Assembly: GCF_051622035.1 (NCBI RefSeq)
Contig: NC_135356.1
Span: 12,882,079 to 12,946,078 of the forward strand
Source: Arctopsyche grandis
Lineage: Eukaryota; Arthropoda; Insecta; Trichoptera; Hydropsychidae
Length of the DNA stretch: 64,000 bases
Reading direction: 5' to 3'
The position numbers and the translations under genes were made by a program. Under the pieces are notes generated by a model. The model had not been told where the DNA came from. It was given only the letters and a program-made list of their open reading frames with translations, and did not search any database. Shown here piece by piece: positions 13,226-48,060 of the stretch (position 1 is its first letter; each line of letters opens with the position of its first letter).

Positions 13226-13418
13226 TTTTTTACATTTATATAAATAATTATTTATATTTAGGTCAAATAATTGACATGTCCGGTAGTAAAGAGGTTGGAA
13301 TAAAGTGACGTATAAAATTAGGATGAATTGGACGAATGAATGCGGCTTTTATCAAATCAAAAATGCCACTTTGCCAGAAGAAAAAGATCTTCGATCAATG
13401 TGTTTTGCCAGTGATGAC

Positions 13419-13551
13419 TAGAGGTAGGACCGGAAGCGTGCCGTTTATTGTTAAATTATTGTAAATGCTTTGTAAAAAAGGTTCGGCAAACCTTTAACAA
13501 TGCATTTACAACATTTCAACAATAAACGGCCCCCTCAGGGTCCGGGCTTTA
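13419..13551. mobile_element. 133-bp hAT MITE, first of a tandem pair
   Basis: Ends TAGAGGTAGGACCGGAAGCG and GGTCCGGGCTTTA. Flanked by GTGATGAC at 13411-13418 and 13552-13559. The interior is nearly palindromic (TTGTAAATGCTTTGTAAAA and AACAATGCATTTACAACATT). Confidence 0.85.
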
Positions 13552-13559
13552 GTGATGAC

Positions 13560-13692
13560 TTGAGTACGAACCCAAAACGCGCTGCCCATTGTCCAATTGT
13601 TGTAAATGCTTTGTAAAAGAGGTTCGGCAAACCTTTAACAATGCATTTACAACATTTGAACAATGAACGTCACCCTGGTTATCCGGGCTTTA
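13560..13692. mobile_element. 133-bp hAT MITE, second of a tandem pair
   Basis: Ends TTGAGTACGAACCCAAAACG and TATCCGGGCTTTA. Flanked by GTGATGAC at 13552-13559 and 13693-13700, so the middle copy of the target is shared with the first element. Same length as its neighbour and as the copy at 60404. Confidence 0.85.
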
Positions 13693-14164
13693 GTGATGAC
13701 GTATGGATGTGAAACTTGGACAATGAACACCGGTTGCTACACAAAGTCCAATGCACTCAAAGAAATATGGAGCGTTGTATGCTTGGCATATCGAGGAAAG
13801 ACAGAAAACGGAATACGTAGGTGAGAAGTATAATAAGCATTGAAGTAGAATGCTTCATTATACTTCAATGATAATAAGGGTTGTGGATATAGTGTAGAGA
13901 TTAAAAGGCCAATATGTGGGCCACGTGGCTAGAAGAATGGATGAAAGGTGGACAAAATCAATGCTAAAATGGTACCCGAGAGAATGCAATAGGGTAAAAG
14001 AAATACCGCGTGGAACATGGGTAGATAAAATTAGGAAAATGTGTGGAGTGCGATGGACTAGTGGAAGCGTGTTGGAGAGACCTTCATCCAGCAGTGTATG
14101 GCGAATGGCTGTAGATGATGATGATGATAATTCAGGTCCAACATCAAGAGAATCTTGACCGATT

Positions 14165-16703: not shown

Positions 16704-16805
16704 TAGTCACCGGAGCCTGATGGGGCCGTGTATTGTTCAAAGGTTGTAAATGCATTGTTAAAGGTTTGCCAAACAATGGATAGCACTGTGACTATCCTAC
16801 CTCTA
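16704..16805. mobile_element. deleted copy (102 bp) of the 133-bp hAT MITE
   Basis: Flanked by perfect CTCTTAAA repeats at 16696-16703 and 16806-16813. The right end ATCCTACCTCTA and the core GGTTGTAAATGCATTGTTAA match the family. About 30 bases of the second arm are missing. Confidence 0.85.
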
Positions 16806-35236: not shown

Positions 35237-35712
35237 TGTTTTCAAATCAAAAATGCCACTCTGCCTGAAGAAAAAGATCTTCGATCAATGCGTTTTGCCA
35301 GTATTGACGTATGGATGTGAAACTTGTACACTGGACGCCAAGTTGCTACACAAAATCCAATGCACTCAAAGAAGTATGGAACGATGTATGCTTGGCATAA
35401 CGAGGAAAGACAGGAAGCGGAACACGTGGGTAAGAAGAATGACAAGGGTAGTGGACATAGTGGATAGAGTGAAGAGATTGAAATGGCAATGGGCGGGTCA
35501 TGTAGCTAGGAGGATGGACGAAAGGTGGACAAAAGAAGTGCTTGAATGGTACCCGAGAGAATGCAAAAGGGTAAAAGGAAGACCGCAGGGAAGATAGGTA
35601 GACGAAATTAGGAAAATGTGCGGGGTGAGATGGATGAACAGAGACGAGTGGAAGCATGTTGGAGAGGCCTTCATCCAGCAGTGGATGGTGTATGGCTGTA
35701 AATGATGATGAC
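35237..35712 (+). mobile_element. RTE-type LINE 3' end fragment
   Basis: The frame KMPLCLKKKIFDQCVLPVL is followed by MERCMLGITRKDRKRNTWV and HVARRMDERWTKEVLEWYP, nearly identical to the C-terminus of the LINE at 45509. A single stop interrupts it after KGRPQGR. It ends with ATGATGATGACATTGATG. It is 5'-truncated, as is usual for LINEs, and younger than the copies at 10178 and 13230. Confidence 0.85.
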
Positions 35713-45508: not shown

Positions 45509-48060
45509 ATCATCATCATCATCATCATTTACAGCCATTCGCCATCCACTGCTGGATGAAGGCCTCTCCAACACGCTTCCACTCGTCTCTGTTTTGCGCA
45601 ACACTCATCCATCTCATTCCGCACATTTTCCTAATTTCGTTCACCCATCTTCCTTGCGGTCTTCCTTTTACTCTTTTGCCTTCTCTCGGGTACCATTCAA
45701 GCACTTCTTTTGTCCACCTTTCGTCCATCCTCCTAGCTACGTGACCCGCCCATTGCCATTTCAATCTCTTCACTCTATCCACTATGTCCACTACCCTTGT
45801 CATATTTCTCACCCACGTGTTCCGCTTCCTGTCTTTCCTCGTTATGCCAAGCATACAGCGTTCCATACTTCTTTGAGTGCATTGGATTTTATTTTGCATC
45901 TTGGCGTTCAGTGTCCAAGTTTCACATCCATACGTCATCACTGGCAAAACGCATTGATCAAAGATCCTTTTCTTCAGGCAGAGTGGCATTTTTGATTTAA
46001 AAACAGCATTCATCCGTCCAAATGCACTCCACCCTAATTTCATACGTCTCTTTATCTCTTCATTTTTACTACCAGACATGTCAATTATTTGACCTAAATA
46101 TAAATAATTATTTACTACTTCTACTGGTTTATCATCTAAGGGGATGCTATCAGGCATGCAATAACTATTGAACATTAGTTTAGTCTTATCTACGTTAATT
46201 TTTAATCCTACTTTTCTACTTTCCCTGTCCAGCTGTGTTAGTCTGATAAGTAGGTCAGCTGAATCACGAGCTACTAAAACTATATCGTCTGCGAACCGAA
46301 GGTGACTCAAAAAGCGACCATTGATGCTTACTCCGGCTGTATCCCAATCCAATTTCCTGAAAACTCCCTCAAGCACCGCATTGAATAACTTGGGCGAGAT
46401 TGTATCTCCTTGTCTTACTCCTTTTCCTATGCTAAATCTATCTGTACCTGAAAAAATTTTAACCGAAGCTGTGGCATTCTTATATATTGCAGCTAACAGT
46501 CCCACATAGGGTTCCGGCACTCCCTGTGTTTTTAGAGCGTTAAGTACTGCATTATGACTAACTGTATCGAAGGCTTTCTCATAATCGACGAAACCTAGGC
46601 ACAATGGCCGTTGGTATTCGTTGGCGCGCTCGATTAGTTCGCCAACTACTTGGAGGTGGTCCATTGTGCTGAAATTTGCCCTAAACCCTGCCTGCTCTAT
46701 AGGTTGGTTCTCGTCGAGGATATTCTTCAGCCTTTCTGTAATAACCTTCGTGAAGAGCTTGTAGACCGCTGAAAGTAGACTAATGGGTCGGTAGTTCTTG
46801 ATATCGCTTTTGTCGCCTTTTTTGTGTATTAAAATGATAGTTGCGTTATTCCATCCTTCTGGTATAGCTTGGTTCTGGATGCATTTGCTGAAAAGCCTAG
46901 CTAAGATATTAATTAGGGGGGGGCCGCCACATTTTAGTAAGTCAATGGGAATATTATCTTCCCCTGGGGTTTTACCGTTCTTTGCAGTTTTTAGCGCGGC
47001 CTCTACTTCGCTAGGCAATACTGCAGGAACCCTTTGGCCGTGTGTCGATTCCAGAGCGGGGAATTGGCCGTTGTCGTTCTCGTATAGTTTTGCATAGAAC
47101 GTGTAAACTCTGTCTATGATTTCTTCTCTATTCCTAATTATTACTCCGCTCTCTGATCTGATTGCGATCATTTGGTTTTTGCCTAAGAAAAGATCCTGTT
47201 TGCACTTTTTCAGGCTACGGTTATTCTTAATGGTATTTTCTATTAGCTTGCTGTTAAAATCCCTGACATCCCTGACTATTCTCTTTTTAATTTCCTTATT
47301 TACTAGATTGTATTCTTGCTTATTATTATCCCTATCTAAATTCCTTTTATGCTTAATTAGGTTTTTTGTTTCCGCTGAAATTTTGCTTAATTTAATCTGT
47401 TTCCTGAATCCACCTAATTTCTTACCTGTTGAGGTTAGAACCGAACTAATTACAGTGTTCAATTCCTCGATGTCTGCTTCTGGGTTTAATTTCCCGTATC
47501 GATTTCCAAGTTCGAGTTCGAATTCCTTTTTCCTAGACCTTAGTTGAGCGAAATCTGGAGAGTTACTGCATCCTTTTATTAATTTCCTTCGTTCGCAATT
47601 TATATTAATGGCCATCTTGGCACGGACTAATCTGTGATCGCTACCTATATCTACTTTACTTAAAACACTAACGTCTTTAACGGAGTGCAGGGCATTTGTT
47701 AGGATGAAATCGATCTCGTTTCTGTCTCCTTTAGGACTCTCCCAAGTCCACTTATTGTTGGTGTTTTTCCTGAAAAATGAATTAGTGATAAAGAGCCTGT
47801 TGTGTTCTGCGAATTCTATGAGGCGATCGCCTCTGTCGTTTCTTTGGCCGGTACCAAAATTGCCTACTGCTCTTTCTGTATTTGCCTTTTGTCCTATTTT
47901 TGCGTTAAAGTCGCCCATGATTATTTTAAAGTGGTGACGGCTGTTATCGTATGCGTCCTGTATTTTTTCGTAGAAGTCTTCTATTTCCTCGTCTGGGTGG
48001 CTAGATGTGGGGGCGTACACTTGGAAGATTTGACAAGTGTACCTGCTCGAGATTCTTAAT
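45509..48060 (-). mobile_element. RTE-clade LINE, 5'-truncated, long intact frame
   Basis: The minus strand is open from the truncation point (about 48060) to the stop at 45525-45527, then ends in a (GAT)n tail at 45527-45509. This short-tandem 3' tail and the RT type fit the RTE clade (craniofacial-development-protein-2-like endonuclease/RT). The 5' end lacks the first half of the endonuclease. No stop or frameshift interrupts about 845 codons, so insertion is recent. Confidence 0.9.
45525..48020 (-). CDS. LINE endonuclease (partial) - reverse transcriptase
   Basis: The coding part of the LINE. The N-terminus holds the second half of an APE-type endonuclease: VYAPTSSHPDEE, IIMGDFNAKIG, WTWESPKGDRNEIDFIL and KVDIGSDHRLV, the last with the catalytic SDH. 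The reverse transcriptase follows: IILIHKKGDKSDIKNYRPIS, AGFRANFSTMDHL, LCLGFVDYEKAFD, GVRQGDTISPKLFN and the catalytic RFADDIVLV. The C-terminal tail has LKWQWAGHVARRMDERWTKE and WMANGCK-stop. The nominal start at 48020 is a GTG inside the endonuclease, not a true start. The enzyme nicks DNA and copies the LINE RNA at the nick; with half the endonuclease missing this copy cannot mobilise itself. Confidence 0.9.
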   Translation of the reverse strand: MYAPTSSHPDEEIEDFYEKIQDAYDNSRHHFKIIMGDFNAKIGQKANTERAVGNFGTGQRNDRGDRLIEFAEHNRLFITNSFFRKNTNNKWTWESPKGDRNEIDFILTNALHSVKDVSVLSKVDIGSDHRLVRAKMAININCERRKLIKGCSNSPDFAQLRSRKKEFELELGNRYGKLNPEADIEELNTVISSVLTSTGKKLGGFRKQIKLSKISAETKNLIKHKRNLDRDNNKQEYNLVNKEIKKRIVRDVRDFNSKLIENTIKNNRSLKKCKQDLFLGKNQMIAIRSESGVIIRNREEIIDRVYTFYAKLYENDNGQFPALESTHGQRVPAVLPSEVEAALKTAKNGKTPGEDNIPIDLLKCGGPPLINILARLFSKCIQNQAIPEGWNNATIILIHKKGDKSDIKNYRPISLLSAVYKLFTKVITERLKNILDENQPIEQAGFRANFSTMDHLQVVGELIERANEYQRPLCLGFVDYEKAFDTVSHNAVLNALKTQGVPEPYVGLLAAIYKNATASVKIFSGTDRFSIGKGVRQGDTISPKLFNAVLEGVFRKLDWDTAGVSINGRFLSHLRFADDIVLVARDSADLLIRLTQLDRESRKVGLKINVDKTKLMFNSYCMPDSIPLDDKPVEVVNNYLYLGQIIDMSGSKNEEIKRRMKLGWSAFGRMNAVFKSKMPLCLKKRIFDQCVLPVMTYGCETWTLNAKMQNKIQCTQRSMERCMLGITRKDRKRNTWVRNMTRVVDIVDRVKRLKWQWAGHVARRMDERWTKEVLEWYPREGKRVKGRPQGRWVNEIRKMCGMRWMSVAQNRDEWKRVGEAFIQQWMANGCK

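Follow-up and report, generated by a model that had tools for sequence, protein, structure and literature searches.

Two hAT-type MITEs sharing one 8-bp target in an RTE-type LINE of Arctopsyche grandis, and the recurrence of shared targets in the genome

In the stretch of Arctopsyche grandis DNA analyzed here (64,000 nucleotides of contig NC_135356.1, called the window below), two MITEs of 133 bp stand side by side at positions 13411-13700, with the same 8 bp before, between, and after them. Our preferred reading, to which we assign a probability of roughly 0.8, is that these copies belong to different subfamilies of a single hAT-type MITE family and transposed independently into the same target through site preference. 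In this process, a first MITE would insert into GTGATGAC of the RTE LINE and duplicate it, and a second, landing in one of the resulting pair of copies, would add a third GTGATGAC. A putative transposase favoring the palindrome nTNATNAn, with G or C at its ends, would leave two copies of a good site with each insertion, and the same target would be used again because the preference is strong and two good sites remain each time.

The window pair, its subfamilies, and their family

Read off the window sequence, 13411-13700 runs GTGATGAC, 133 bp, GTGATGAC, 133 bp, GTGATGAC. The first copy of the target (13411-13418), which is single in the empty RTE relatives L209, L211, and L212, is followed by element e1 of subfamily 1 (TAGAGGTAGGACC...GGTCCGGGCTTTA; 13419-13551, plus strand), by the second copy (13552-13559), a spacer common to both elements, by element e2 of subfamily 2 (13560-13692, plus strand), and by the third copy (13693-13700). 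Both elements were recognized by subfamily match, consensus, and hairpin fold. They split a LINE 3' fragment (13243-14095, plus strand), delimited by its joined flanks and its match to L209 over 13243-13418 and 13692-14095, which we take to be of RTE type from the earlier note's call and its PVMTYG-type motif. When the flanks are joined, one GTGATGAC is left, within TTTTGCCAGTGATGACGTATGGATG, and the translation FDQCVLPVMTYGCETWTMN runs in a single frame; the target corresponds to the codons V-M-T of the LINE motif PVMTYG, which the joined flanks read through. The paralogous empty sites serve as a stand-in for empty alleles at the window locus. In 4 LINE relatives excised from the best 40 scored, the site is uninterrupted, as CCAGTGATGACGTATGG in 3 (L209, L211, and L212) and as CCAGTGATAACGTCTGG, with 2 changes, in L210. 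The earlier note's description of two 133-bp elements and a thrice-repeated 8-bp target inside a LINE that reads through is thus exact in the sequence. Elsewhere in the window, LINE 3' fragments at 35239-35682 and 45548-46121 also cover the target site, one with an intact, empty GTGATGAC, and further left-end matches of the MITE family lie on the minus strand at 16805 and 60536.

An ungapped alignment of the two elements shows 26 differences over 133 positions. From its own subfamily consensus (built from 29 copies for e1), e1 differs at 3 positions and e2 at 6, versus 20 and 23 when each is compared with the consensus of the other subfamily. Among the best 40 scored matches of each, e1 is 97% to 98% identical over the full 133 bp to 39 other copies, and e2 is 93% to 96% identical to another set of 39 places. 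The subfamily 2 consensus begins TAGAGTACGGACC, where e2 has TTGAGTACGAACC, its left end having mutated to TTGAG. The membership of e1 and e2 in two different subfamilies argues for two insertions and against duplication. The earlier note had dismissed a simple recent duplication, and the subfamily difference and the 26 substitutions bear this out; e1 and e2 each fall in their own subfamily and are not each other's closest relatives. That note had left the choice between a second MITE and a dimer undecided; the separate subfamilies, together with spacers that are locus-specific and usually equal to the outer targets (see below), speak for a second insertion rather than a dimer. Perhaps e2, which carries more differences, is the older element and inserted first, although ages read from these consensuses are biased since the sets were picked by similarity to e1 and e2. 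The 57 copies sampled include some in tandem, and one with an indel (L047) dropped out of the subfamily 2 consensus.

The family has the marks of MITEs, and its ends and targets agree with the assignment to the hAT superfamily made in the earlier note. The elements are short and homogeneous in length (133 bp, with 39 further e1 copies over the full length among the best 40 scored), and their inverted arms (13410-13477 and 13493-13560, 76% complementary) fold into hairpins with z-scores of −8.1 for e1 and −4.8 for e2. Copy number is high: a right-end pattern has 1469 genome matches against 24 for its control, giving 1445 right ends, and a left-end pattern has 7825 against 2713, giving an estimate of about 6150 left ends when the 82 true end variants among 100 listed matches are scaled to the 7825 and the control rate is subtracted. 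Ends in the hAT superfamily have the form (C/T)A(A/G)NG, and the family ends TAGAGGTAGGA / TAAAGCCCGG, TAGAG / TAAAG in most copies, fit this form. The target duplications are 8 bp long, as in the hAT superfamily, and their core is of hAT type as well (next section). They are exact and differ between loci in 39 of 57 copies, and in 34 of 60 in another set chosen by right end from contig C1. The arrangement in the window is therefore beyond chance, since other copies of the family also have exact, locus-specific 8-bp duplications. Membership in a piggyBac-type or CMITE group was rejected, as there is no TTAA target and the MITE targets are 8 bp.

One of the 150 hAT dimerization-domain matches scored in the genome was examined as a possible source of transposase. 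This match (L213, G000:C11:28301200-28305200) has a frame of 628 aa, and its candidate ends, TAGGCTTG, are flanked by a duplicated CTGAAGAC; it was rejected because it carries none of the MITE ends, which places it in a different hAT family. A further MITE of the family, at positions 659-791 of L002, has ATGATGAT duplicated and adjoins LINE tail sequence; GAT repeats fit nTNATNAn.

Shared targets and target preference across the genome

Pairs of element ends 0 to 30 bp apart were searched for genome-wide, and control patterns gave 0 matches. Head-to-tail junctions numbered 45, of which 32, at 25 loci when a 9-unit array is counted once, have exactly 8 bp between the ends; 59 of 81 head-to-head and 4 of 6 tail-to-tail junctions also have 8 bp. 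This amounts to about 86 loci with a shared 8-bp target and intact ends (25 + 59 + 4 − 2, an array on C9 occurring three times), and the counts are lower bounds, for the end pattern misses even the window pair, in which the left end of e2 is mutated. The earlier note's expectation that re-use of the same 8 bases would be rare is contradicted by these loci and by the many RTE copies filled at one site, described below.

Sequence around 69 of the 8-bp junctions was fetched (L004 and L007 were excluded from this set, two filler regions, L147 and L148, were set aside, and 3 of the 45 head-to-tail junctions, C2:34212120, C2:34439024, and C7:10692238, were not fetched as junction regions, the last being seen in L032). 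In 49 the outer boundary was resolvable on both sides, in 16 on one, and in 4 on neither. All 3 targets are identical in 35 of the 49 resolved pairs, as they are in the window pair, and spacers differ between loci and mostly equal the outer targets. The partners are unequal in length in 41 of the 49, the commonest lengths being 133, 102, and 144 bp.

A strong site preference, at which the earlier note had hinted, is evident in 73 exact duplications (among them 2 likely duplicated loci, L033/L034 with shared flanks and L175/L176 identical over 202 bp). These define a palindromic target, nTNATNAn, whose core is present in 63 of 73, with T2, A4, T5, and A7 each at about 94% after pseudocounts and G or C favored at the ends; no clear extended motif was seen outside the 8 bp in 39 empty sites. 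The core conforms to the nTnnnnAn target of hAT elements of the hobo/Hermes type (PMC3276498, PMC2803484). The spacers are stronger sites still: 57 of 78, a set that takes in 49 of 50 listed head-to-head loci (59 in all) and omits one of two same-array C9 spacers, match STNATNAS, versus 32 of 73 targets of other copies. Their distribution is described better by the square-law expectation f^2/p (logL −382) than by the single-site distribution f (logL −395), with a best exponent of 1.5 rather than 2.

For independent insertion governed by the 8-mer preference, with about 6150 left ends and 1445 right ends, the expected numbers of junctions are 6.7 (head-to-head), 3.2 (head-to-tail), and 0.37 (tail-to-tail), or 4.6, 2.6, and 0.37 with 5112 left ends, compared with 59, 25, and 4 observed. 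The orientations are in line with the abundance of the ends, and because the excesses are alike in all 3 classes, orientation looks random. The excess is about 8- to 11-fold; if the upper bound of the bootstrap is taken, it is 5- to 6-fold in the two larger classes. This, and an exponent of 1.5 rather than 2, suggests that 8-mer preference alone is not enough to account for the number of re-hits. Context or local accessibility may account for the remainder.

A LINE codon site filled repeatedly

The target of the window pair was followed through other copies of the LINE with a pattern joining LINE flank, GTKATGAC, and element start, searched genome-wide with the first 100 matches listed. It gave 29 exact matches of filled type (window included), 34 with one mismatch, and 188 with up to two mismatches, some of them visibly empty sites, against 8 for the control. 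Twenty-one of the 29 exact matches were examined: the window, C4:32308615 (L215), and 19 chosen regardless of multiplicity. The 20 regions fetched (in one of which, L221, the sequence ends early) are all filled, by elements of 83 to 176 bp and one of 226 bp; the second GTGATGAC is exact in 19 and has one mismatch in L231, and LINE sequence resumes after the last target in 16. Since these elements have many lengths and both orientations and are mostly dissimilar, with a few 94% to 98% alike, the fillings appear to be mostly independent events.

At several of these sites there are multiple elements. L215 has GTTATGAC four times around 3 elements, L002 has at least 4 elements, ending in GTGATGAC-GTATGG, and L234, L216, and L217 likewise hold more than one; L072 was rejected as an abutting case, its RTE copy (L214) being uninterrupted there. 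Among the 19 sites chosen regardless of multiplicity, a second element is present in 2 to 3, two at 8 bp and the third (L230) probably at 10 bp; C11:8868116 (L234), the 20th region, was picked for a known double and is excluded from this figure. Whether this exceeds the first-hit rate turns on how many sites are empty, and for that number 2 extrapolations, each good to an order of magnitude only, disagree and favor opposite outcomes. The first, drawn from 9 single-base empty-site variants among the two-mismatch matches listed (contigs C1 to C4), gives about 400 to 600 intact empty sites and a first-hit rate of about 4% to 8%. The second, drawn from site-covering RTE copies in the window (2 besides the one carrying the pair) and in 1.5-kb flanks (L066), of which 1 in 3 is intact, or 1 in 4 with L214 added, points to about 1500 or more, so that the first-hit rate would be about 2% at most. 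Filled in many LINE copies with its target nearly constant, this codon site offers natural replicates for studying how transposons choose their targets.

Alternative explanations and known systems

Tandem elements could also arise if one insertion were duplicated locally, by unequal exchange or slippage, or if a ready-made dimer were inserted as one unit. Across 50 pairs (window pair included), however, median identity within pairs is 0.72, versus 0.71 between loci (Mann-Whitney P = 0.73), partners at least 90% identical make up 5 of 50 pairs versus 10% of between-locus pairs, and in none of the 50 are the partners mutually closest in the sample; this speaks against explaining the pairs in general by duplication or by insertion of dimers. 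We consider local duplication highly improbable for the window pair, whose elements fall in different subfamilies, and more widely head-to-head junctions (59) outnumber head-to-tail ones (32) and 41 of the 49 resolved pairs are unequal in length. It does suit an array at G000:C2:9123411-9124666 (L004, L007), where 9 alike units of the same family stand head-to-tail with GTTATGAC/GTTATAAC spacers, and which may have grown from a dimer through unequal exchange. Insertion of a dimer would sit well with the equal lengths of e1 and e2 but is barely credible, because one and the same donor spacer would then be brought to new targets, whereas the spacers are locus-specific and, in 35 of 49 resolved pairs, identical to the duplications on either side; the only one recurring unchanged at several places is a 17-bp spacer on C2 and C1, not the 8-bp spacer of the window.

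Less improbable, though we still hold it doubtful, is an assisting role for the resident element, which would attract a later insertion to the target that it has itself duplicated. Such attraction would add to the sequence preference and could work, for example, by local jumping or by transposase bound to the ends of the resident MITE. The 8- to 11-fold excess in all 3 orientations (5- to 6-fold at the upper bootstrap bound) would be explained in this way, as would the density of family ends around other copies, which climbs toward the element, from 3.4 times uniform at 500-1500 bp to 5.7 times at 200-500 bp and 17 times at 31-200 bp. These figures rest on 6, 3, and 5 ends per bin, of 19 found around 55 loci (L055, L056, and L063 being excluded from 58), and the nearest bin contains the far ends of adjacent elements. 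The raised density at 200-1500 bp suggests local or contextual heterogeneity, from which part of the excess probably comes. The stronger spacers (STNATNAS in 57 of 78 versus 32 of 73) are likewise expected if site quality drives re-use. At the RTE site, 2 to 3 second hits among 19 sites are unremarkable if the first-hit rate is 4% to 8% (P of 3 or more, 0.05 to 0.19), but 3 would be unlikely at a rate of about 2% (P = 0.006). On this doubtful reading, the target duplicated by a MITE would become hotter than an identical sequence at another place, and insertions would seed arrays of mixed composition; the paralogous RTE site, one sequence in many loci, would allow this to be measured directly.

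Independent insertion through site preference is a known process, of which the window pair is a clear case. Reviews citing McGurk and Barbash 2018 describe dimers formed in this way as common in Drosophila, including expansion of hobo (PMC12628747, PMC7214746), for which an array of 13 to 19 copies is given in PMC7214746. The pairs reported here resemble the Drosophila double insertions in that they probably arose through repeated insertion at one preferred target, and the 9-unit array resembles the expansion of hobo. Those double insertions are commonly head-to-tail, as cited in a paper on Atlantic cod (PMC12368964); here, unlike in Drosophila, the elements are non-autonomous MITEs of mixed subfamilies in apparently random orientation, and insertions have returned many times to one paralogous LINE site. 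The 8-bp duplication, palindromic motif, and layout are shared with hobo, whose motif is GTNCGNAC, formerly given as NTNNNNAN (Linheiro and Bergman 2012, PMC3276498), but the center of the MITE target is AT (GTNATNAC) and the 39 empty sites show no clear counterpart to the motifs reaching beyond 8 bp described in that paper.

Full-length MITEs also stand in tandem in the CMITE arrays of Acropora corals (PMC2872659), which differ in their TTAA targets, piggyBac type, and alike units and spacers, and which were attributed to slippage rather than independent transposition. The arrays at inversion breakpoints in Atlantic cod (PMC12368964) are likewise of tandem hAT-derived MITEs, but they are long and lie at the breakpoints, and the term "target site" is absent from the main text of that paper. 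Our literature search found no paper uniting hAT MITEs, tandem arrangement, and a re-used target site. To these systems the present genome usefully adds a paralogous codon site of a LINE that has been a target many times, and with about 86 loci, mixed subfamilies, apparently random orientation, and a nine-unit array, it shows how site preference can start tandem repeats.

The recurring 17-bp spacer, GTTATGAGTGTTATGAC, separates head-to-tail elements at C2:31066441, 31988678, 33730745, 34212120, and 34439024, and head-to-head elements at C1:12160232. The C2 sites lie in a stretch of 30.8 to 34.4 Mb. Of the 22 hAT transposase matches listed with a 628-aa frame, 14 are in this stretch too, which suggests a large repeated block.
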